This document shows positions 9,805 to 62,430 of a stretch of 64,000 nt of DNA, piece by piece. The position numbers and the translations under genes are program-made. The DNA comes from Imbricaverruca yamaguchii (taxonomy: Eukaryota; Arthropoda; Thecostraca; Neoverrucidae). Position 1 is the first letter of the stretch; every line of letters begins with the position of its first letter. The DNA is taken from NCBI GenBank assembly GCA_034440575.1, contig JAOTOL010001477.1, forward strand, positions 1,110,001-1,174,000. The letters run 5' to 3'. The notes under the pieces were generated by a model. It did not search any database. It saw only the letters and a program-made list of their open reading frames with translations, and had not been told where the DNA came from.

Positions 9805-10741
9805 TTAACACGCGCCCTGGAGGGCCTCTGAAAATAACGCGCACTGGAGGGGGCCCCCCCCCCTAAGATCTCATCTCCTATGAAGGCTAGAGCAACCAAA
9901 TTTGCAGAGCGGATGGGCACGATAGTGAACTCTATTGTGTGCAAATGAGGTCAAAATAGCAAAATGTTCTGGTTTTGCGTGGCTTGGCTTGTCATTGTTA
10001 TGGATCGCTGTGGCTGTATTTAAAGGCACCAAAATTGGCATTAATGATGTTTTGGACATTACTAATGATGCAATACAGTTGTCAGATCCGCCATTTGACC
10101 TCAGGTCACCTATATAGGAAAACTTTATTTGGTCATTACCTGCTCCAGTTACCAGAACCGGGCTCCCATCCCGACTGCTCCATTGCGCGGCTCGGCACAA
10201 TCGGCTTCGCAAATAAAGGAGTGAAATGCATGAATAAAGTATGGAAATGCTTAGGCACACAATGACAACAGTAGATTTCGGGATGCATAGGGAGTAACAT
10301 GTAAAGTGACATCAATCGCATGACAGTCATTTGCATTTATGACACATTCCAGTTGACCAAGTTTGGTTCCATTAGCCTATCATGAACTTGACCTGACTTG
10401 ACCTCGGCGACCTAACATGACTTTTAAATTATATAGCATAACCATATGCATCAAACAAGTCGCTAGTGTTGTCAAGAATACTTCCCTATTGCCAATATAC
10501 GGGAAGCGCATCAGCGCCGATTTTTGTGCTCTGGCGCTGCGAATTGTTTTTAGTTTAACGGCCCCTAACTTGAAAACTCCTCGGCCGATTTACATTTTTC
10601 TTGCTTTAAACAATGCGCCGGTCATTGCTAAGCAGGTACGCGAAAAATTTGGCGTATATCGGCCGGTACAATATGGAGTTATGCACGAGAAATCGGAAGG
10701 ATTGGCGGATTTCGCCATACCCCCTCTAGGGCGTGTGTTAA
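9805..10741 (-). mobile_element. TTAA-flanked non-autonomous DNA element, copy E2 (inverted)
   Basis: Starts TTAACACGCGCCCTGG and ends CTAGGGCGTGTGTTAA. It is a near full-length reverse complement of E1: for example the block around TTTTGCGTGGCTTGGCTTGT at about 9,972 is the complement of the block near 9,345. It entered the satellite at the equivalent TTAA of the next monomer (flank GCGAGGACGTCGAACCAT, compared with GCAAGGACTCTGAAAA for E1). A further partial copy of its right end follows. Confidence 0.75.
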
Positions 10742-11107
10742 CCTGTTATGAACTTGACCTGACTTGACCTCGGTGACTTGACATGACTCTGGAACAATGT
10801 AGCATGACAATGTACATCAAGCAAGTCGCTAGTTTTGCCAAGAACACTTCCTTTTTGCTAATATACGGGAAGCGCATCAGCGACGATATTTGTGATCTGG
10901 CGCCGATAGATTTTGTGGAGTTTAGCGACCCCTAACTCGAAAAATGTTCGGTTGATTTTCATTATTCCTACTTCAAACAACGCGCCGGTCATTTATTAGC
11001 AGGTACACAAACAATAGCGCATATCGCCCGGTAAAATCTGGAGTTATCTATGAAAAATCGGAGGGGTTGGCGGATTTCGCCCCCCCCCCCTCCAGGGCGC
11101 GTGTTAA
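10742..11107 (-). repeat. Partial third copy of the TTAA element (one end only)
   Basis: Repeats the last ~365 bp of E2 (GAACTTGACCTGACTTGACC, then AAGCGCATCAGCG) and ends CCAGGGCGCGTGTTAA at 11,107. It has no second end, so it is a tandem duplication or a truncated insertion. Confidence 0.7.
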
Positions 11108-21204: not shown

Positions 21205-21816
21205 CTGCGTGTCGCATTATTTTCCCACGCGTCGACGCATTGCAGGCGAAAATCGTGTGAATGTTATACGATCATCGGCCACTGCGCAACGCATTACTTT
21301 CCCACGCGTCGATGCGCGGGCTACCGAGCTCTCGAACAATAGGACAGCTGCACGCAAAGAGCACGTACTCAATTGTATCATCCTGCCATCTGGCGATAAA
21401 TATTGTTACCTATGATTCAGCATTAAATCTCATTAGTGTAATACGTAGACCGTACTGCTACCTAGCGATAGCTATCTGAAGTGTTGCTTCTAGAAAATTA
21501 AAAAAGTTCTTGAATCTGTGGAGGTTGCAACCTGTGGAGGTTACGACTGCTGCTGAGTTGTGGAGGTTATGACCGCTTCGTACTTGTGGAGGTTGCAACC
21601 TGTGGGGATTACGACCTGTGGAGGTTATGACCTGTGGAGGCTATGACCGCTTCGGAGTTGTGGAGGTTACGACCTGTGGAGGTTATGACCGCTGCGGACT
21701 TGTGGAGGTTGTGACCTGTGGAGGTTATGACCTGTAGAGGCTACGACCGCTGCGATGTGTTGAATTTGTGGAGGTTGTGACCTGTGGAGGTTATGAACTG
21801 TGGAGGTTATGATACG
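21205..21816 (-). repeat. Right terminal inverted repeat with minisatellite
   Basis: Complement of the left arm. About 15 copies of TGTGGAGGTT occupy 21,516-21,816, and the outermost bases TGTGGAGGTTATGATACG mirror the left terminus. The inner part keeps CTACCTAGCGATAGCTATC and CCATCTGGCGATAAATATTG. It also contains an extra ~70-80 bp direct duplication (TTCCCACGCGTCGACGC at about 21,223 and again near 21,299) that the left arm lacks. Confidence 0.85.
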
Positions 21817-21819
21817 CTG

Positions 21820-22909
21820 TCCTCCCTGGGAGTTACTGGTGCCGAAAATCGATGTTACATTGAGTGAAAGCTACAACCATGATACCCTACCTCAAGAGTT
21901 CCGAATTAAAGCACTGGATCTCATTGCGTCCTACGTCGGCTACAAGAAAACATACACGGATGGTTCAAAGATCGAAGCTGGTGTTGGCTCGGCGTTTGTT
22001 AGCGGCTCCGCCACACGATCTTTTACGCTACCTGTGCAGGCATCCGTCTTCACATCGGAATTGGTAGCGATTAACAAAGCATTGTGCTTTATACAAGTAT
22101 CCGACGAAACATTGCACCTCATCCTAACAGATAGTCTCAGTAGCCTTATGGCACTGAGGTCTTTTAATTTATCACACTCCATTGTCCAGGAAATAGTTTT
22201 ACGGTTGACGTCACTACGTGCAGATGGTAAGACCATCGTTATGTGCTGGATTCCGAGCCACGTCGGTATATCGGGGAATGAGGCTGCTGATGCGGCTGCA
22301 AAGCGCGCAGCACAGATACCGTGTACACGGTATATGGCCATTCCTGCTAGATATATATATCCAGTCATTAACAATTATGTTTTTCGTGAGTGGCAGGTGC
22401 TTTGGGACGCGGTTGGTGAAAACAAGCTTAGGACAATTAAGCCTAGCATCGGCCAGTGGTCCTCGTGCTCGCGTAGGACTAAGCGAGACGAGGTGACACT
22501 GTGCCGCCTACGTATTGACCATACTTACGCAACTCACAGATATCTTCTTTGTGGTGATGATATGCCCATGTGCCCCAGATGCCAGGGACGTCTTTCAGTG
22601 CATCATATCTTAACCTCATGTCCTCAGCTTTCTAATGTTTACAAGCACTACTTTGGTCGATCGCAGGCACTATCAATTCGTGATGTTCTTGGGGATGACT
22701 CGGTCGCGATCAATTCTGGTAAATTGTTCCACTTTCTTTGGGAGATAAACTTCAATTCTATATATTATCCTGTTGTAGAGGTGGCAGCTCAGTACAATGC
22801 CAGGTCAGTGTACGACCGATTATGTCGGCCAGGATCAAACGGCGGCGCTTCCGCTCGTGAGCGGGGAAGGGTGGGGGTGGGTGAGGGTGGGTGGGGTACC
22901 AACTTGTGA
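21820..22909 (+). pseudogene. LINE ORF2 C-terminus: RNase H and Cys-His domain (continues the LINE at 1-2,345)
   Basis: The frame is open from inside the inverted repeat (21,800) to 22,909, but LINE homology starts at PPWELLVPKID (21,820). Counting residues from 21,800, the RNase H catalytic set is complete: D54 in YTDGSK, E87 in TSELVA, D111 in LTDSLS and D164 in NEAADAAAK, with SHVGISGN just before. A CX2CX7HX4C motif follows (C258, C261, H269, C274: MCPRC, VHH, SCP). I-group LINEs carry RNase H at this place. The enzyme would degrade the RNA strand after first-strand synthesis. This piece is intact, but it is severed from its RT by the 19.5 kb insertion. Confidence 0.9.
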
Positions 22910-27189: not shown

Positions 27190-28305
27190 AAGACATAAAT
27201 GATTAGTGCAACTATGAGCCACAAGGGCCCTTCTTGGTTGCACTCTGTACACTCAACCAGTTGCCCACCAAATCTGTCAACAGCCCTCCCTGTAATACTG
27301 AAAAGCAAGCCCTCTATTCTTATAATGATTGTCTATGCTGTTTTTAAAGCTGTTCAATGTGCTGCTACTGACAATGTTTTCTGGCAGCTGGTTCCAGTGT
27401 TCTACTACCCTGTTGGTGAAGAAAGTTTGCCTTAACCTTTTTCTGCTGTGGTTAATTTTAATTTTGAATTTATGACCTCTAATTGCATCATTTCTGTTAA
27501 ATTCAAACATTTCCCCAAGGTATCCCCTCTCCAGACCATGGACAAATTTAAAGACCTCGATGAGATCTCCTCTCAGCCTTCTATATCTAAGTGAAAACGT
27601 ATTCAATTTCTCCAATCTTTCCTCATATGCCAGGTTGCTTATGCCATTAACCATTGTTGTAGCCCTCTTTTGTACTCTCTCTAAAAGCCAACAATCTTTT
27701 TCATAGCTAGGAAACCAAGCTTCGATGCAGTATTCCAAATGTGGCCTGACGTATGCGCAGTAAAGCTTCCTGATCACTTCCTCACTTCTGTATGATACAT
27801 TCCTATTTATTGCCCCGAGCATTCTCAGTGCCTTCTTCCTGGCTTCCTTGGTCTGTTCTGATGCCCCCAGTTTTGTGTTTAGAATAACACCTAAATCCTT
27901 CTCCTGTTGAGTCACTGATAGCACTTGGCCACCCATCAAGTATGGAGCCTTCATATGCTGCTTACCTACATGCATGATTTTGCACTTATCAAAATTAAAT
28001 TTCATTTGCCATTCTTCGGACCACTTCACAAGCTCGTCTAAGTCTTTTTGCAGCGAGATATGCTCATCTTGACCTGTTATTGCCCTAAAGACCTTCAAAT
28101 CATCCGCAAATTTCAAAACTTTACTGCTTAGGCCACTTTCAATGTTATTTACAAATATAATGAACAGTAATGGCCCTAGTACTGACCCCTGGGGGACTCA
28201 ACTAAGAACATTTTGCCATGATGACTTTGTACCATTTAGCATCACTCTTTGCTGTCTATCTGAAAGCTAGAACTCTATCCACTTTAAGATGCTACCTGCA
28301 ATACC
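27190..28305 (-). mobile_element. CR1/Jockey-like LINE, 3' half
   Basis: Truncated non-LTR retrotransposon read on the minus strand, beginning with GIAGSILKWIEF near 28,305 and ending in an (ATGTCTTTAT)n-like short tandem tail (27,183-27,200). 3' ends made of short direct repeats are typical of CR1-like elements. The sequence 27,200-27,600 is repeated at 63,225-63,640, so this is a multi-copy family. The 5' part is missing and is replaced by AT-rich simple sequence. Confidence 0.9.
27277..28303 (-). pseudogene. Reverse transcriptase palm/thumb of a CR1/Jockey-like LINE
   Basis: The frame reads LSDRQQRVMLNG, then VPQGSVLGPLLFI (motif B), then FADDLKVF (catalytic box, about 28,095-28,118). After these come MQFNFDKCKIMHVG-type residues, KDLGVILNTKLG (about 27,880), RPHLEYCIEAWFP, ERVQKRATTMV and NRVVEHWNQLPENIV near the C-terminus. 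Two in-frame stops (FYL-to-stop near 28,272 and TGA before VPQG near 28,198) show it is dead. From 28,116 to 27,277 the frame is open for 279 codons. No RNase H follows, unlike the I-type copy. Confidence 0.9.
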
Positions 28306-36946: not shown

Positions 36947-36954
36947 CTGTACAT
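36947..36954. repeat. 8-bp target-site duplication, left (CTGTACAT)
   Basis: Identical to 41,228-41,235. Element X copy 1 has a single related site (CTTGACATGTGC near 11,979). The pattern fits the hAT preference nTnnnnAn. Confidence 0.92.
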
Positions 36955-37328
36955 TAGGGTGGAGTGATTTTATGCGTTTTTGTAAAAACGCTGGGGGATA
37001 AAGTCTTAAAACTTGCGTTTGGTTCTAAAAAGATGATCTGCAAAGTTTTAGAGCAATCTGAGGCCGGGAAGCCGCCGCGCCTCAGGGCTTTCTGAGACCG
37101 AAATGACGTTTTCTAACGAACTTGCGGGATAAATCACCATTTCAAGAATTCAAATAATTAGATAGAAAATAAAGAGTTGTTTCATTGCATTCTACAGTCT
37201 TTTATTGACCGCTATGCCAATTTTCACTTCTCTGACTTGAAAATTGTGCCCGTCATTACGCAGAGTCTCGTAAGGTGTACCGACCGCAGCGACATCACTG
37301 CCCTCTATCGGTGGAAGTGTAAACTGTG
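36955..37328 (+). repeat. Left terminal inverted repeat (~374 bp) of the hAT-like transposon
   Basis: Matches the right arm from the first base. A GC-rich inner palindrome, CTGAGGC with GCCTCAG (about 37,059-37,087), is kept exactly in both arms and is a plausible transposase contact. The match fades after CTCTATCGGTGGAAGTGTAA. Confidence 0.9.
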
Positions 37329-37528
37329 TGTATTGGTCGTTTTTCCCGTTTTAGTTCCTCTCTGTGACAACTGAAGGCAGGGAGGGGGCGGATCTAAGAC
37401 AGGGTATATTCGGACGGTTGTTATGCCTACAAATAGGCACCCGAACAGAACGAACTAAGCGCAGTTAGTCCTAAGACCTACTCATCTAAATAAGATCCTG
37501 GACCACCATACGACTACGAATTGCACAC

Positions 37529-37613
37529 GGCTATCTCTCTGTCTCTGTCTCTGCCTGACTGTCTATATATATATCTCTCTCTCACTCTCTCTCTCCCCAT
37601 CTCTCTCACATTT
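37529..37613. repeat. CT-rich microsatellite
   Basis: (CTCTGT)n and (CT)n tract just downstream of the transposase stop codon. Confidence 0.8.
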
Positions 37614-37617
37614 ACCG

Positions 37618-38556
37618 CTACACGAAGTCACTTTTCTTGGCGGATTTCGGTCTCGAAGCACAGCTGGCCTGGCGCGATACGATAATGCCGTGTCGCCTGT
37701 CCTCGCCGAACACACGCGTGGACGCCGTAACGCATCGCTCGATACTTTGTGCGTGGCATGGGAATGCCGGTAGCGAGAGAGGTTGGTCGACGGCTGACAT
37801 AATCTCGTCGTTCGACATGCGAGCGGTAACTGGCGGTTCGATCACCTCGACATGGTCCCATTGAATCATGTCGGTGTATGTGGCCGCCTCCCAGTTCAAT
37901 GGGGGTACCATGAACTGTCGGCACCGGGATCCCGAGTTACTCCGCGCACTCCTGCTCAGTTTGCCCCCCCCCCCCCCCTCTCCCGGATCGACCTCTCAGC
38001 GTCGACAACCATGGCCGCGATTAGGTTCTTCGGGTGGGCGAACCACGCATTTCGTTGCACTGAACGTTTCGCCACTGTCTGCACTTCAGGTGTCTGTGTC
38101 TGAATAAGTCCCATCGTTCTGAAGAGATGCACGACTCCTTGTGTGAAGAGTGGGCGCACCTTGATGTCGAACCACATAGGGGCATACACCTGCTGGACAA
38201 ACTCTGTCATCTTTGTCAGAGCCAGGGTTGGCGACGCAGTTATCGTGTACAGTACGAGCACTCTGATGCCGAGAGTTAGCCACCGCGCGTGGTTAAGCGG
38301 ACCCGGCCTGGTACGTGCCAGCTCAGCACTGACAACGCCGGTGGCGACGGCTCGGCAGTATCGGAGAAGGATGCGCTGGTCAGCAGACAGGTCCGCGACA
38401 ACCTGCTCCGCGATGTCAGGTGCGTTGAATGGTATGGGACGGATGTCCACCCCCGGCTGGCGGTGAATGTCACCAGCTATAGTTTGTCCCAGCGGGCCCT
38501 TGAAGGAATTGGACCCACTGGTACCGTGGCCTTCATCCAGTTCCACGAACACATGC
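37618..38556 (-). CDS. Transposase-like gene, exon 2 (C-terminal half), one frameshift
   Basis: Starts right after a TTTTTCGCAG acceptor and reads HVFVELDEGHGTSGSNSF, completing exon 1 in phase. It continues through SADQRILLRYCRAV, LNHARWLTLGIRVLVLY, VYAPMWFDIK and VQRNAWFAHPKNLIAAMV, all blocks I know from this family. At a run of 15 G (37,964-37,978) the frame is lost. The other frame goes on through KLSRSARSNSGSRC, FMVPPLNWEAATYTDMIQWD, EPPVTARMS and FPCHAQSIERCV (E codon about 37,738-37,740), and stops at 37,618. SIERCV probably holds the acidic residue that completes the RNase H-fold active site. A run one base longer, or two shorter, would keep the frame. Confidence 0.85.
37964..37978. 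repeat. 15-base C homopolymer causing the frame break
   Basis: The only lesion in an otherwise continuous transposase gene. It lies between the conserved NLIAAMV and VPPLNW blocks, in a glycine-coding linker. Long homopolymers are prone to replication slippage and to assembly error. Confidence 0.8.
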
Positions 38557-38802
38557 CTGCGAAAAAGCCCAGGACATAATGGGATTGGGACAAGGAAGGA
38601 ATTGGATTAACACTTATCAGGGTCTAAATGGCATGGCAAGTGTTTGGATTGTACTACGGACTCACAAATTGCCATGGGTCTAGATAGGTATGCAGATGAC
38701 GCAGTATATTATTGTATGTCATGTAATTTGTAAGGATCAGGTGGATAGTGGCGATGTATTTCAGTCAATTCTTGTTTTATTATAAAAACAAACGGCACAT
38801 AC
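38557..38802 (-). other. 246-bp intron in the transposase-like gene
   Basis: Donor ATGAG|GTATGT at 38,803/38,802 and acceptor TTTTTCGCAG|GCATGT at 38,557/38,556. Removing it joins LPM-R-HVFVELDE in frame, which restores the family motif HxNxLPxRHxF across the junction. Reading through gives an unrelated tail and a stop. Confidence 0.88.
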
Positions 38803-40097
38803 CTCATCGGGAGCACGTTGCCATGAAGAAGGCAGATGAGCCACTGGACGCTACGGCCCAGCTGGCGCTCCATCCTCGTGAGTGCACCGTTTTCGCGGCC
38901 TGTGTTGACGGCAGTGCCATCGACCAATACTGCCTGCAGGGATTCTTCTGAGTCGCACTCCCGAACGACTTCTAAAGCCTTGCCAGCAATTGATGCACTA
39001 TTTTCTGATGTCAGTGCTCTGTGAGCGATGTAGGTTCTACCTGGCTCGCTCACAAATACCAGATGCTTCTCTTTTCCCGTAAGCCGTACGTCTTGCTCAT
39101 TTGTTTTCTCTCGTATCTTTGTGATATCCTGTCTCCCATAGAATCCCATGCATTGCACCTTACCGCCTATGCCCTCCTTTAGCTTTCGTTTTTCTTTCTC
39201 CTGTGCCCTTTTTCTGGCTCTTATCACTTTATCTCGTGTGATGACGTGCCTCATGTCGTTCTCAGTGACGAGGCCAAGGTCCTTCAAGAGAGCGGTGCCA
39301 AGGGCCGCTGCAATCCTATCAGTGACCTCAATGTACCGGTCACACTCCTTAACGAAATTCTCCAGAGGCATCATATTGTACGGAGCCCTAGTCTGTGTTG
39401 GTTCGTGGACACTCCCTGTGTCATATGCATCGTCACCATTGTTTCCCTCGTCCATGCTTTCGGGCTCGTGTCCCGTGCTGTGCTCGGTCAGACCCGAGGG
39501 ACCAGGATCCGAGTCGTTGGCGTCCGTCTGAAGGAAAGCCGGGTCAGGCCGCAGACGGTTCTGATCTCTTCGCCTCCTCCCCAATGCATTGGAGGCCTTC
39601 ATGTCAATGCCGCCGATGCTTCGCTTCCTCTCACCTCGCTGGTCTTGTAAGAAATTCCACTCGCGGTATGGAACCTTGTTCTCGCTGGGGCAGCTGCAGG
39701 CATTTCTCGAATGACAACTGCACGCGCAGATGTCAATCAGCTCATGGAGGGGAATCGTTTTGCTTGCGCCAGCGCGTTTCTTTATTGGGGTCTTTGTTAG
39801 ATCCTTTCCTTTCTTCATAATCACCAGGACACCCCGGACAATCGACTGAAACGATTTAACAGGGACGCTTGTTTTCCCCCAAAGGTATACAACGCCCTTG
39901 GCAATGCTCGTGGCGATTTGCCTTTCGCCCGCTGCATGGTTGTCGACAGCCCGAAGTCTGTTAGACTGTAGTCTGTAGAAGTTGTATACATGAATCTGAA
40001 GTGGCAGTTGGTTCTTCGGCAGTTCGCGGGGATGGCCCAACGCAAAGCGAGCCGTCTTCGATCGGAATGAACTTCCCTTAACCTTTTTTACTTTCAT
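38803..40097 (-). CDS. Transposase-like gene, exon 1 (N-terminal 431 codons)
   Basis: ATG at 40,097 follows an in-frame stop shortly upstream. Blocks in order are QIHVYNFYRLQ (about residues 34-44), a Cys-rich CACSCHSRNACSCP motif (about 128-141), YREWNFLQDQRGERKRSIGG (about 147-166), and an acidic, low-complexity linker (about 185-240). A basic stretch RARKRAQEKEKRKLKEG follows, then LVFVSEPGRTYIAHRAL, VDGTAVNTG (D near 393) and QWLICLLHGNVLPMR (C422, H425). The D...CxxH arrangement resembles the second catalytic D and the following CxxH of hAT transposases. That makes an RNase H-fold DDE enzyme likely, acting in the nucleus on the element's ends. The family normally has E at the place of V in GNVLP. 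Function is inferred from context: it is the only gene between the inverted repeats. Confidence 0.88.
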
Positions 40098-40865
40098 ACT
40101 CGAAATCTGATAGGTTCACTAGTCTGGAAAAGAGGCAAAAACTGGTTAGGCAACTGGTAAGTTTCAAAATTCATCTCTCGCCATAGGATAAAAATGTATC
40201 ACAAAGTTTTTTTTGCTATACCAGGAAGTTCAGGGTGCATAACTGCATTGGAAATTCCGCGTGCGACACACGCCCTCGTAGATCCTTATTTTCGGTTCCA
40301 ACCATGGTCATGGTTGGAGAATATGCTTCGGCCACCCCGGCCGTGGCCGCGCAATATATTGGCCGCCAGTGGGGTAACTTATAAAGCAACTCTTTACCCA
40401 TGATCATGGTGGTGATGGTGAGCAAATGTAACAGTTGGTGGGCAATCGATGGTCGGAGTACACAATCATCGCCAGTACTGCTAAATCTGAGCGGTATGCG
40501 TTAGTCGTGCAACCGAGTACCCACCCAGTAAGGTGTGGGATTGTTCAGTGTTTCTGCCAAAGTAAATTAATTAAGTTCAAATATCTGCAGCAACAATTCA
40601 CATGCAGCCAAGAAAACATGCTAGCAGGGTATCTCAGGTAAGCAGTGTGAGCTTGGAGGCTGAAAGGCATGCCACAATATGCCAAAGCCGGCTGTGGCTA
40701 GGCTCCAATCGTGTGTAGCTGTCGATAGAAGTCGCTGGATTCGTAATAAAATAGCGCTGTGCGCATAAGAAGTCAGCACACTGTGCACTGTCTCAAATCC
40801 GCCACCTACCTGCCCCCCAATTTACCAAGAAAGATACTAATATTGCGGAATGAACGGTGAATGAT

Positions 40866-41227
40866 CGCAGTTCATACTTCTGCCGATAGAGGGGAGTGGT
40901 GGCGCTGCGGGCGGCACACCTTCCGGAACTCTGCGTCGTGGCAGGCACAATTTTCAAGTTAGGTAAGTGAACATTAGCACAACGGTGGATGAAAAACTAT
41001 ACAATGCAATGAAGTACATATTTATTTGCTATCTAATTATTTACATTCCTGAAATAGGGCTTGATCCCGCAAGTTGGTAGAAAAACGTCATTTCGGCCTC
41101 AGAAAGCCCTGAGGCGCGGCGGCTTCCCGGCCTCAGATTGCTCTAAAACTTTGCAGATCGTCTTTTTAGAGCCAAACGCAAGTTTTAAGACTTTAACACC
41201 AAACATTTTGGAAATCACTCCACCCTA
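40866..41227 (-). repeat. Right terminal inverted repeat (~362 bp) of the hAT-like transposon
   Basis: Complement of the left arm, ending CACTCCACCCTA. It differs from the left arm mainly in bases 17-35 from the end and by scattered substitutions. Confidence 0.9.
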
Positions 41228-41235
41228 CTGTACAT
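41228..41235. repeat. 8-bp target-site duplication, right (CTGTACAT)
   Basis: Exact match to 36,947-36,954. Confidence 0.92.
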
Positions 41236-51959: not shown

Positions 51960-53314
51960 GAGGTCTAGTGGTCGGCCCATCGAGCCTCTTGAAGTATGAC
52001 CAACTGTGCGGCAGCTTGGTCCGATACGTCCCGGGTGGCAGGGACCTGACACGGAAAGGTTCACAACACCTCCGTGAACGCCCACCCGGGCGATGTATTT
52101 GTCGGGCACTTTAACTGCGAAACGCGGCACACCGGAGCGGCTATCGCCCAACAGCTGCTGCGCTTTCTTGTTGAGCGCGGTATACAGGCCACTGCCATCC
52201 ATGCGGTGGGAGGCGATGGGACTAACGAGGTGGTGGGCTGGCAAGGCGGCTGGATGGCCCAATTCGAAAAGCTGCTAGGCCGGCTGCTGGCCGAGCTGCC
52301 CTACAGAGCCCCATTCAGGAAGCTCAACGGGCCGAACACCAGTCCCTCCAGCTTCTCGGTTCCAATCGGCAAGCTGCTGTCGGGCCCGGTGCATCAGTTG
52401 CATGTCGCTCTTCCCGCCCCTGACAACAGCTGCGCTTCCGCTGCTGTAGATGATGTCAAACGCAATCTGAGCTCAGATCTGCGCCTGCTGGTGCAGTGTG
52501 CCCAGTGTGTGACTTCAGGCGATGGAAGAGAAGGAGCGCAGTGCGTTCATGGCCAGCTCAGCATGGCGCGGTGGCACACCGCACAGAACAGACTGTTGCG
52601 TGTTTACATGGCCCAACAGTGCCCCAGCGCCGAACTGCAGACGCTTTCGTTGTACGTTGTGGGCGCTTACATCCCAGCAGTGCTGGCAATCAGACACCGG
52701 CCGGATCTGGTGGAGGCGCCGCACCACCTGCACGACCAGCTTGAGCGGCAGCGCCGCCACATTACCCGCGATGATCTGGCCGAAGTGCAGAGGAGACTCT
52801 GCGGGAACGCCATGATGGCGCACCCTGAGGCCGTCATCTTCGGCATGCTCGGGGACGAACGCCGAGAGATCCGGGCCCGAGCTATCCAGCTCATCGGTGA
52901 GGCCCGTCAGCGCCGGCAGCCTGGGCAGCCAGTCCGGGCTTACAAATGCCTGGAAATAAATATCCGGGCCAGCAACTTCATGGAGTTGATGGATCTGCAG
53001 CACCATCAGGCAGATATCGAGCCACCCTAACCCGCCCACTTGGCGGCGATGAGCTGGCGCGTATGCTGGACGAGCCTCTGCGAACTGGCATTCCCTGCCA
53101 CACGCAGGCGACGGAGCGAAGTGTAAAGTTGACCATGGAGTCGGCGGCGGCTGTCACCGGTAGAGATCGCCAGGGTGGCTATAGCCTGAATAAGGTGGCC
53201 TTCCGTCGCCGGTTCCGGGCCAGCGAGTCCCAGAGCGCCGCTGCCGCGAGTCTCAGCGCGGCGGGCTGTTGCGGCGTGCCCCGGTGGCGGCGGCGGAATG
53301 GTAATGACAGATGA
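51960..53314 (+). pseudogene. Decayed second copy of the VDGTxxNTG transposase-like family
   Basis: The frame 52,074-53,030 starts from a GTG, and a TGA lies in frame at 52,047. It holds AVGGDGTNEVVGW (family VGxDGTxxNTG, N and G altered), FRKLNGPNTSPSSFSVPIGK, LSMARWHTAQNRLLRVYM, VVGAYIPAVLAIRHRPDL, NAMMAHPEAVIFGMLGDERR and NFMELMDLQ. The QWxxCxLHxNEL block is deleted: LLGR joins LAELPYR directly. After IEPP a one-base loss shifts the frame, and the family's end GGDELARMLDEP, then IPCHTQATERSVKL, continues in the 52,946-53,314 frame. It is GC-rich compared with its flanks. Clearly inactive, and diverged from the 37.6-40.1 kb gene, so it is an older or separate lineage. Confidence 0.8.
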
Positions 53315-53329
53315 TCTGACGGAATACAT

Positions 53330-54585
53330 ATAATATACCTTTTACAAAATACATACAGGTGTGAGGGGTAACACTGGTTTCATGTTGATTACCCTGTTGC
53401 GATTCAGGCCAGGCTTCGCAGGGCATTTTAAAGAAAATATGTTCTGCGCAATACCACCACTTTTCAACCAATATGTGCGATTATTTCTCTGTAGAATCCG
53501 TCACCATTTGTTTTTGTATTTGCGTATCTAATTCACATAAAACATAACCGGTAAGTTAGTTGAGACGGTACCAGTCCATCAAGGCGCCAAACCACGCTTG
53601 GTGGAAAGTACAAACGCGTCCGTCATGAGGCATTTGGAAGGCAGCTGGGCTCGCCAGGCCTGCCATTTGTTGGCAGCCCAGGGAACCGCTCGAACTTTCC
53701 ATACTTCAGAAGACTAAATCTGAGGTAAGAATCTTGTAAACAGTGCCAAATGATCGAAAATGAATTTCCTCGACGATGTAATGCTCAAGCGAACTGATTT
53801 TCCCACCAGTCCGCTTATGTGATGCAGAAATGTAAAAAAAATTTGGTCCCAGCCAAAATCTTCAAGTGGCCGGGGGCCATCAAAAGATGTGAGAAATTTG
53901 CATTTCTGATGCTTTCATGGTGTTCAGCGGCCCAAAATGCATAAAATGAGGGGGAGCTGCTTTCGATTTTGGCAAAAAGTGTGCAAGCCGGACCAACCTA
54001 GTAGTACGTGTACATCATTTGATCCTGTGAATACCCTTTTTCTGAAAGCGAGGAAAAATGATCGAGATCGCTTGTTTGGAATACCCGATGCTGGGTAGGC
54101 AATTATCAAACAACAAACGGCGTAGAACATCCAGTCTATTGATGTAGTATTGTTACCCCACTGAAGGTGTGGTTTTCGCGATGCATTTCAGGTGCTTCAG
54201 GGAGTTACTCCGCGCATATCGTAACTAAATGTGAATGTGTCATGATCACTCGATTGTCAAATGGATAAAAGGCGTTTGCATGGCGCATCTGGAAGTCATG
54301 AGCCGAAATTCTGCTTAGAGAGGATATATGAATCCCGGGATCCCGGGAAGTCCCGGGATTTTTTTCCCGGAAAATCCCGAAATCCCGGGATTTGGAAAAC
54401 GGCCCGGGATCGACATCCCTACTAGGCACGCCATTAGCGGGGGATGGGCGGGGCTGACGCGAAAATCCGAAAGTTGGCCCCTCCCAAACCGGTGAGCTAG
54501 ATCCGCCAGTGAGTCAACCTTATGGTATCGTATCGTATGGTGTACTTTCACATTGTGTCCAACACCATCTGGTTTTCATCAACGT
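53330..54585. other. Intergenic stretch
   Basis: No gene. Contains the TCCCGGGA cluster at 54,330-54,412. CTAGATCCGCCAGTG near 54,497 resembles a hAT-type end. Confidence 0.4.
54330..54412. repeat. TCCCGGGA palindrome cluster
   Basis: At least five full or partial copies of TCCCGGGA within about 80 bp, spaced by A/T runs (for example AATCCCGGGATCCCGGGAAG). Read on the minus strand it starts TAGGGATGTCGATCCCGGG, which looks like the end of a hAT-type element. Confidence 0.7.
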
Positions 54586-54701
54586 ACATTAGGGTGTCTC
54601 ACCATACCAATATCCATATTTCATTCGATCCACATTTATTGCCGCATTCGTTTATGCGAGAAACCACCACACTGAAATAACTGGACGGTTTGTTCAAGAT
54701 C

Positions 54702-56101
54702 TAGGGGTCCCGCAAGTTGGCATATTTCAGAAATGGGTACATATCGCGCGGCAGGGATCGGCGGTCACTCGGCAATAATAAGATTCACACACCGGGTCCT
54801 TCAGACGATGCGTCGACTAACCGACCTGTATGTAGGTGTCACACTTGTCGCTCAGATCAGCATTTCCTTTTTTGTTGTCTTTTGGATCAGCTTTCTAGTT
54901 CCATGCACTGCCTTCAGCAGGAACTGCCTCTTCTGTCGTTGTCAGGGCGTTGTTGAACTCCTTGATCAAGGCGATCGCTCGTTCCGCGTGGTCGTTGACG
55001 ACCGCAAGCCGTGTCACGCGCTGCTTGCCCGCCTTGTACGCGTCGTTTTCTTCCCACGACTGGACTGGTGTGCTCAGGTTCAGAGCCTCCAGCAGCACTT
55101 TTGTCCGTGAGGTGACGAAATCCGACAGGCGTTTTCCCTGGAATGGCCCCACATTTTTCTTTTCGAGTCGCTTCAGTGCCTTTTTCTTCGCAGGCTTTCC
55201 GCGGTTGGTGACCATACACTCCTTATCACACTGCTTGGTCGAAGAGTGCAAGCCCGACCAGAGTCTCGGATATATACCACACATGGCGCATCATGGCTTC
55301 CAGAGCTGTTTGCGCACAGCTGCAGCTCCCTCGCATGCAAGTGCATCCGGGTCCTTGAGGAACTCTGCTCGCGGTGCGAGATCCGCTCGCGACGCAAGAT
55401 CCCATGTAGACCAGCGCCACGAAGAGGCTGACGTACGTGATGCCTTTGAGTTGGTCGGACGTCATCTGGAACATTGTCGTCCGCTGCAGCAGGAACAGCT
55501 TCAACGCGTATATGCCCTTAGCCATCCACCTCGCATGATGGTGCGCTCCTGGTCTCTTCAGGGGGATCTCGTCCACCATCGTCTCCCCCAGGAACAGGAG
55601 CACGAGCTGCAGCAGCTCCTTGTAGTCGTTCCGTGGCTGCGCCTGGACCAGAGCCTCCGTGATCACCGGCACCGTTCGGGCTTTCAGCGCGGCAGCGTTC
55701 CGCTGGCTTCGATTTTGACTGATGGAGTATCACTGGCGGTGGTGACATCAGTCTTGTCCAGTGAGTTCCACTGTCTCTGGAACTTATCGTCTGGCCCGGT
55801 GGAAGGGCCCATAGCAGACTTCATGGCGCGGGAGAGAATGACCTCGTACACATGATGTCTGCAGGTGAGGTGAAGCAGTTCCCCTTCCAAGAGTTCCTCG
55901 AACTTCACGCACGCTCCTACATAGCAGCCAATATTTGAAGCGGTAGTGTCGAAGGAGACCCTTTCAGCCAGCTGGTGCTCCTGAACCAACTCAAACCCGA
56001 CGCGTGCCATTTCGACTCCTGTGCCAGCTGACACTTTGGGGATGCCAAGCAGTTTCTCCTGTCCAGTGGAGTGGCAATGATGCCAGCTTGCGGGACCCCT
56101 A
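54702..56101 (-). mobile_element. Internally deleted DNA transposon bounded by 22-bp inverted repeats
   Basis: TAGGGGTCCCGCAAGTTGGC (54,702 onward) and its complement ending at 56,101 match over 22 bases with one mismatch. The coding piece fills the space exactly. At its upstream end the inverted repeat runs straight into the middle of the transposase frame, so the N-terminal half has been deleted together with any promoter. I find no matching 8-bp flank (TCAAGATC against CATCAGTT), so the target duplication has been lost or the ends are misplaced by a few bases. Confidence 0.65.
54852..56095 (-). pseudogene. Third copy of the family: C-terminal half of a related transposase-like protein
   Basis: Read from 56,080 down it gives GQEKLLGIPKV, SFDTTASNIGCYVGACV (probable catalytic D), HLTCRHHVYEVILSRAM (CxxH equivalent) and MGPSTGPDDKFQRQW. 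Frame breaks follow near 55,690-55,710, after which come NDYKELLQLVLLFLG, RPGAHHHARWMAKGIYALKL, FVALVYMGSC and HVWYISETLVGLALFD. Another break near 55,230 precedes LSDFVTSRTKVLLEALNLS, WEENDAYK and VVNDHAERAIALIKEFNNAL (probable catalytic E). A further break at about 54,925 precedes QFLLKAVHGTRKLIQKTTK, with the stop at 54,852-54,854. This is the DTTxSNTG/VVNDxAERG branch, distinct from the VDGT branch at 37.6-40.1 kb. Dead, with at least three frameshifts. Confidence 0.82.
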
Positions 56102-59100
56102 CATCAGTTCGGATGTATCTAAAACTTACAGAGGTGAGCTTTTAAGATAAAAGGAACATGGAGAGGCATGTGGATCAACGTTCGAACAACTTTTGTTTTT
56201 TACCATTGTTCGGTGTCTAACGTACATCTTGAAATAAATGCAAACGACATAGAGTTTTGTCAATTGGACAATCACAAATGACATTACAACCATACGTAGC
56301 CTATTATCAAAACACAAATAAGCACAAATATTAGTCACAAATAAGACACACTCACAGAACACGATGGATGGCATAATTCTTGGGTTTTCTTGGTGTTGGT
56401 ACGGGGTCGGCATAGATGGGCGTGATTCTTGGGCGTAGATCGGCAGATTATCTAGTGTTAAGTGTTATGGTGGCGCTGGTTGTGCGGCGTGTTATGGTGC
56501 TGCTGATTGGACTGGGAGTATTGGTGATCGAATAACACCAACCATAATACCAGCTTGGAGTGCTGGTCCTATGGTTGGTGGTGCTAGTTGTAGAGTACCT
56601 AGTGTTATAGTTTTGCTGGTTGGACAGATGGTGACAGATAGTCTTGTATTATGGTCCTTGGCTGTGAATTTTTTATATCAAGTATTTCAGGTTTTCTTCT
56701 CGAGGTTGGTTGGTTGGTTTGGTGTTTGGTATTTGGTGTTTTGGTGTTTTGGTGTTTGGTGGGGGGCGGGGGTGGGCATCATTCTCTTCTCGTTGTCATT
56801 TGACATATTCTGTGAAAATCTGTCAGTTGTCAATTTAGGTTTAGGATGCAAATCTCGGTTGGGATAATACCGAAACGAAATGAGGCGATGCCAGCGGGAA
56901 ACAATTGGCTGCTGAACTCATCGAAATAAGCATCGGGATTGCCACAGATTCCGTTCTTCAGATTTAAATGTGCTCAGGAAATACACATTTGCACATTGTC
57001 CCATTAGGTCGTTCAATGTTCGATGTCCTGTGTCTGCCCGTGCTGCCAGCTTTTAGGTGAGTTTCCTGCCATATTCTGAATCTCATCTCGGTCCCGGTTG
57101 TCGATTGTGACCCAACTGGTATGACATAACCAACTACGTTTGGTAGTGATGGCAAAATAGTCAACCAATCGCAGATAACTGGTGGCTGTAATGGCTATTG
57201 CCACTATTTGAAGATCCTCATCTCACTCGGCTGGTGGACTAGTTCAAAATAGGCGCACGGAAGGCGTCTAAGCGCGGAATATAGGCGCACGGAAGGTGTC
57301 TCCAGCTAAAAGTGACACGTCACAGGACTACGTTAATTAATCAGCTTGAAATAATTTGACCTTCATGAATATAGCTAGGTTAGGTTAGGTTAATCAAGTG
57401 GGTCAAATGTATCCTCGCAAAATCTCGCAAGAACCAAGTGGACCGATTGCATCCTTGCAGGGGTGTTTTGTAAGATGGACATAAAGTAGGGTTTTGAACC
57501 GACGCGAAATTGGAGGAGTGCGCTTTGAAGTGAAAAGATCAATCCATCTGAAAATATCAACCCAACCCAGTTTAAGCACGCCTAAAGTACACTTCAGATG
57601 ATATGAAGTTCGTTAAAAAGCGACATTTCGGCGACTGCCACGCCCAGATAACAGCAAAATCTCGAGAATCAAGTGGGCCAAATCTATCCTCCGACGCACG
57701 GTTAGGCTTGTGATACTTTATCTGTGCATATTATTTGATAAAGATACTCTAGTAAAAGATGCAGCTGGTCTTGGCGCATCTGATGGTGTTATCAAGGCTA
57801 GGTTAGGTTTTCAACTTTTTCGAAGATGTTTTTTTTAATGAAAAAAGCAACATAGTTAAAAACATTAGAAAAACAAAACATGCTTCCCTTAGCTTTTGCG
57901 ACATTTTTCAACATGGTTCTGTTAACACGTGTCATTTAACATTTAGGTTAGGTTGATAAAAATAGGCAAATGTTCATATTTACGTAATATTCATATTAAT
58001 GTTTTGGGTGCATTTTGTAATTGTCTAAATTTGAAAACTGTGTGGACAAATTTTAATCAAAAGTTCTTTCTAAATTTTTATCCTTCCTAATTTTACACCT
58101 GCTTTACATTTTTCACCCGGGAAGCAAAATCCATAAATCCCGAGCATTTCTCCCAAAGCAATTTAGTTTTTAGGCATGTTAAAGGTATGTTCGTCCGAAC
58201 TAATTAATCTAAGCAATAGGCGTAGAATCACGCACTGACCACGAATATAAGAAATCGTACCGTAACTTTTTGAGATACGAGCATATGACGAAATCATGAA
58301 ACATTGTTTGATGTTGTGTGTGAAATTTTCGCAAATTGTAAGGGAAGACAATTAACGTGGGTATGATAAAAGAAGGGAAAAATGAGGGGAAAAATTGTGA
58401 TGGTCGAAAATTATTGATGAATAGCGTATCGATAGTTTTGAAACTTTTAAAAACCTTTTATAATATAATGTTATCTGACAAAGTAGCACACATGAATTGT
58501 GTATGGAACTGCTTTTTTGGATTTTAAAAATTCTTGTGATTTGTTTAATTTTTAAAAAGTTTACTTAACATTTTAAGTACGAAAAAAGTGATAATTTTGG
58601 AATTTTTTTTTCTCCTTTCCCCCATGGCACCGAACAGTGATATCAAGATGGCGTAGATCGGACACGAATCGAGCGAATTCTGGAGACTCAGTCCACAGGA
58701 TTTTCCACATTTCCCGAATTTTTCATTTGCAACAATTTCCTCATACAACCCAAGTTACACAGACTTAAGTGGACGAGCTGAGCTGAGAAAAGTAACTTAT
58801 ATCGATCTAGCTGTGTAACTTTTGAGATATAAGCCAAATAGTTTTGGCATGATGCTTCAGAAAATGATGCATGACAATAATTATTTATAGTGCATTGCCC
58901 ACATGATGGGATTATCGACATTGTGTCGACTTGCGTTTGAGAATGATAATTATCTTTGTAACTTGTGATGGACTTGGATGGATGGATAGATGACTTGGAC
59001 GCGACACATTGCTTTCTATAGCACTTAGCACTAAAAGATCGGTTTTAAATTGCTCATTTGAGAAATAAGGAAATAATGGAAATTCTGATGAGTACATATC

Positions 59101-61795: not shown

Positions 61796-62430
61796 ATGCA
61801 AATACGTATTTTGAACCAAAACCAGAACGGTTTCCGCTCTGTTTTTCTAGAGAAAAAAAACAGAGCAGAAAAGCGAGCAAAAGAATTGGACTTGGCTAGA
61901 AACTGTAATGAAGATGGCAAAGAGTTCTTTAGTTTTTACAAGCTGAGTAAATTTTCTAGCACAGTGGGTCTACTGGAGGTGAATGGCACTGTATTAAGTG
62001 AGGATGTTGAGATGATTGAGAAGCTGAGGAAGCAATTTAAATCATCGTTTACAGTGGAAGATATAACCAATCTGCCAACCGTAGATTATGGGTCAATGAC
62101 ATGGGATAGGAAAAATGATGTTGACTTGATTGATAGTGACGTTGTTCTCAATCATATTGGGAAAATAAAGCGAAACAAGGCAGTAGGACCTGATGAAATG
62201 TATGCTAGTCTACTGCGTGAAGCTAAAAATGAACTGTCAATTCCACTTAGTATAATATCTTATAGATTAGTTTCACAAAGTAAAATTCCAGAAGACTGGA
62301 AGAGGGCAGACGTAGTTCACATTTTCAAGAAAGGCGAAGGAGGGGAAAGTTGAAAACTACAGACCTGTAAGCCTCACATCCCTAGCCTACCTAGTCTACT
62401 TGAATCAATTATCAAGGATAGAATAGTTTT
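61796..62430 (+). pseudogene. LINE reverse transcriptase N-terminal fragment (CR1/Jockey-like)
   Basis: An open frame from about 61,796 to 62,353 carries the pre-RT segment (EFFSFYKLSKF), NHIGKIKRNKAVGPDEMYAS (RT motif 0/1, about 62,148-62,208) and IPEDWKRADVVHIFKKG. A one-base slip at GAAGGAGGGG (near 62,345) then shifts the frame into VENYRPVSLTS-like and LESIIKDRIV, where it ends at about 62,428. This is the part missing from the 27.2-28.3 kb copy, and it may belong to the same family, though no overlap allows a direct comparison. Truncated at both ends. Confidence 0.85.

Follow-up and report, generated by a model that had tools for sequence, protein, structure and literature searches.

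A probable hATm transposon in Imbricaverruca yamaguchii with a spliced gene for a predicted Hermes-like transposase

The 64,000-nucleotide stretch of the Imbricaverruca yamaguchii genome analyzed here (GCA_034440575.1, contig JAOTOL010001477.1, positions 1,110,001 to 1,174,000; hereafter the window) contains a 4273-bp element (36955..41227, ends TAGGGTGGAGTGATTT...AAATCACTCCACCCTA). This element is, in all likelihood, a cut-and-paste DNA transposon, once autonomous and now decayed, that belongs to the hATm branch of hAT and carries a spliced gene for a DDE (Asp-Asp-Glu) transposase with a predicted fold like that of Hermes, a hAT element of the house fly.

The outline of the element can be read directly from the DNA. 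It is flanked by an 8-bp target duplication (CTGTACAT, at 36947..36954 on the left and 41228..41235 on the right; 8/8 bases identical), and its two ends agree at 16/16 bases. These ends are the only perfect copies of the 16-mer in the window; with up to three mismatches it occurs three times against 0.52 expected, a number reached in one of 100 shuffles. The left terminal inverted repeat (36955..37402, plus strand) aligns to the right one (40788..41227, minus strand) at ~80%; an ungapped alignment of the arms covers 364 nt at 82%, a gapped alignment covers 422 nt at 80% (36985-37402 versus 41209-40788), and inclusion of the 16-bp tips brings the repeats to ~440 bp. Aligned globally from the tips, the arms start with the perfect 16-mer; a short unequal stretch follows, then ~100 bp of nearly identical core, beyond which the likeness decays out to ~440 bp. 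A first-pass annotation, made from the letters of the window, had described the perfect duplication, the matching ends, and repeats of ~370 bp, all of which are borne out; its description of the element as "nearly intact" suits this outline but not the enzyme, in which the frame is broken and the first catalytic position (D1) is Tyr.

The hATm group was proposed in 2018 (Zhang et al.) as a fourth hAT family, defined by TAGGGTG/CACCCTA termini and duplications of 8-9 bp (PMC6004678; statements on hATm from this source follow the portion of it that was accessible). The same termini are present at both ends of the window element, and its 8-bp duplication is of the same size. More than 74 Repbase entries are related to hATm (PMC6004678); transposons of this kind have been published and have Repbase entries. 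The suggestion in the first-pass annotation that such long repeats mark a separate branch of hAT is supported, but the branch, supposed to be unnamed, looks as if it already has a name, hATm.

One spliced gene, also evident in the DNA, lies on the minus strand inside the element. Exon 1 (38803..40097; 431 full codons) encodes the N-terminal CxC/CxC domain, the D1 site, the second Asp (D2), and the CxxH motif, and its open frame matches the family profile with an E value of 4e-117. A GT-AG intron (38557..38802) separates it from exon 2, which is split over two open frames (38606-37956 and 37995-37618): a first piece (37979..38556) with the RW motif at 38285-38280 (E value 4.5e-73), and a second piece (37618..37963) with the catalytic Glu and the stop codon (E value 4.3e-35). 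The reading frame changes across a run of 15 C (37964..37978), either by mutation or through an assembly error. The intron looks conserved, because the open frame of one relative (P0002, 46% identical) stops at the residue spanning this splice junction and the sequence of another (P0001, 47% identical) diverges there. The single two-exon gene described earlier is accordingly spliced as proposed, but its frame is interrupted in exon 2.

The order D, D, CxxH, RW, E is kept in the family, as judged from alignment counts, and is that of the hAT columns; a full DDE site is predicted in the relatives. In the window copy the D1-position codon (39138..39140, residue 320) is TAT (Tyr), whereas 51/51 relatives in alignment A2 have Asp; the surrounding motif, mostly GFDG in relatives, is GFYG here. 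D2 is Asp393 (38919..38921), CxxH is C422xxH425, and the catalytic Glu is that of SIER (37740-37738), all on the minus strand. The earlier assignment of the CxxH and SIER residues stands, but the Asp393 that it had placed at the head of the series is D2, not the first Asp. The Trp of the RW motif is conserved (43/43), and in four of the five columns counted for the N-terminal CxC...CxC pattern, 42-44 of 45 rows with letters retain the cysteine. With Tyr at D1 and a broken frame, the window copy, as assembled, should make no active enzyme.

For the fold, a computed model of a relative (P0035) was searched; the window's own protein was modeled for residues 1-239. The P0035 model has an RNase H core with a helical insertion between CxxH and the final Glu, as in Hermes, which is the top match in two programs (Foldseek and VIA). 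The match, at 12% identity, covers the insertion and reaches the C-terminus at Hermes residue 609, past the PF05699 stretch of Hermes (524-602). The window protein family is thus predicted to consist of DDE enzymes with a Hermes-like (hAT) fold, in agreement with the RNase H-fold enzyme expected from the motifs, and the fold check called for in the first-pass annotation comes out in favor of a transposase. A predicted fold of this kind, together with the position of the gene between matching ends, makes the protein very probably the transposase rather than a passenger, and would tie an orphan family to transposition as had been proposed. The N-terminal region (residues 1-239) is helical in its model, which had no match in PDB; the BED zinc finger, which is common but not universal at the N-terminus of hAT transposases, gave no match (zf-BED) in ten proteins searched, and the Pfam listing for alignment A2 (25 of 41 families listed) does not include it.

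Several results weigh against this reading. The Pfam listing for 51 members (25 of 41 families listed; E values up to 5) contains no hAT family, and none appeared in the ten proteins searched, window pieces included. PF05699 in particular, the C-terminal dimerization region, which is reported in hATm-6 (PMC6004678) and was matched by 4/4 hAT proteins used as a positive control, was absent from the families listed and was not detected in the window pieces. Comparison by hhalign with a 26-sequence, Hermes-centered hAT alignment was not significant (probability 1%, E value 0.053), one of 15 column shuffles having reached 0.055 and two reversed controls 0.083 and 0.13; this bears on detectability and was not treated as defining hAT membership, and the alignment nonetheless pairs the D1 and CxxH positions with those of hAT. 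The Foldseek match to Hermes has low TM-scores (0.32/0.45) and a root-mean-square deviation of 14.8. By its DNA anatomy the element looks like hATm, in a comparison with the published description and not with the published proteins; no relative turned up in two scans of viral contigs or in one scan of genome contigs. The family is not linked to hAT by sequence alone and, since the profile comparison is near the control level, the assignment of the protein draws on predicted structure and motif order, a link to Hermes that ordinary sequence searches miss.

Two further relics of the family in the window belong on the same side of the account in some respects. The second copy (52050..53311, plus strand) is diverged, lies in two frames (profile E values 1.4e-58 and 4.2e-9), and yielded no delimiting ends when these were looked for; it is located downstream of a long GT repeat. 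The third and older relic (54590..56219), missed by tblastn at 1e-3, has transposase pieces that fall between 56103 and 55229 of the minus strand, in two frames (profile E values 2.6e-10 and 2.4e-4), a left end TAGGGTGTCTC, and flanks of ACGTACAT on the left (54582..54589) and right (56220..56227). Paired inverted repeats of ~30 bp (26-30) are situated 108/114 bp from its two ends, with a score equaled in 2 of 984 random pairs. Its right tip, however, retains TAG only, and the likeness of its arms to the arms of the main element is not significant (best score 26 against null values of 26 at 95% and 29 at 99%); because of this, and because the window contains four occurrences of ACGTACAT and six of TAGGGTG, the limits drawn for this relic are no more than suggestive. 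Counting the main element, the window has three copies of the family, and two of them therefore show matching 8-bp flanks with at least one TAGGGTG end, firmly in the main element and suggestively in the third relic. The check on other copies called for in the first-pass annotation covered these relics of the window.

It is conceivable, though improbable, that the element represents a superfamily apart from hAT, with only the general fold in common and with 8-bp duplications and TAGGG ends acquired by convergence. The missing Pfam hAT match among the families listed, the non-significant profile comparison, and the N-terminal CxC...CxC pattern, with no BED match listed and none in PDB, would all fit such a separation. 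The Hermes match, however, takes in the insertion, continues as far as the C-terminus, and is the best one in both programs; the RW motif is kept (W 43/43), and the published tree is said to put hATm within hAT (PMC6004678). Far less credible is a passenger or host-derived gene on an element moved by another transposase, for which one could cite the broken frame and lost D1 of the window copy, the lack of recognizable ends in one of three family copies, and the further open frames (up to 155 aa) that the element contains. A complete DDE site and a Hermes-like fold are, however, predicted for the relatives, and another family copy, the third relic, also lies between matching 8-bp flanks, which together leave this explanation very little room.

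For a hATm transposon that encodes its own transposase, a course of transposition can be proposed. Hermes cuts its ends, forms hairpins on the flanks, and inserts with an 8-bp stagger, and the likeness of fold leads us to expect the same of the window enzyme. We infer that the transposase would bind the TAGGGTG ends and the long inverted repeats, the latter perhaps through the helical N-terminal CxC...CxC region; it would then excise the element via hairpins on flanking DNA, the conserved Trp helping as in Hermes, and integrate it at a new position through 8-bp staggered cuts, giving the CTGTACAT duplication. A more speculative proposal, which we put forward tentatively, is that hATm enzymes form a deep hAT lineage that joins a Hermes-type catalytic core to a DNA-binding N-terminal domain whose fold is unrecorded (helical, CxC/CxC, no BED); such enzymes would read very long repeats and favor mostly alternating purine-pyrimidine targets centered on TA. 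Such a preference is suggested by the GTACAT common to CTGTACAT and ACGTACAT and by the TATATATA with which hATm-3 of Hydra is depicted in the accessible part of its source (PMC8721813).

Elsewhere in the window, two tandem arrays of related units lie in opposite orientation 19 kb apart (2351-2663, TCATAACCTCCACAGG; 21516-21812, TGTGGAGGTTATGACC), and a 366-bp unit is present in two tandem copies with 80% matches (10382-11107). Open frames that by eye resemble reverse transcriptase or RNase H pieces of non-LTR (long terminal repeat) retrotransposons are present at 768-1577, 21797-22909, 27277-28197 (minus strand), and 61796-62353.

The transposon kind is known; the contribution here is a predicted Hermes-like structure, with a map of its residues, for a protein family that had no annotation. 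This family, which lacks a Pfam entry, gains a likely identity, a set of catalytic residues, and a structural tie to Hermes, so that hATm-type transposases can replace unknown proteins in the annotation of its members.

Compared with hAT elements in general, for which repeats of 10-25 bp are given in the accessible part of one account (PMC3942097), the repeats of the window element are long (~440 bp, ~80%), and are nearer those of hATm-6_RP and hATm-6_CV (417 and 575 bp), which are published as examples and not as a stated rule (PMC6004678). Hermes, at 12% identity to the family model, differs from the window family, which has the N-terminal CxC/CxC domain and no listed BED match. The P element transposase of Drosophila has the RNase H core in common with the window family and stands second to Hermes in Foldseek (E value 3e-4), but it is a weaker fold match and is absent among the 50 matches listed by VIA. 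The P element makes an 8-bp duplication, as the window element does, and its transposase contains a GTP-binding insertion.
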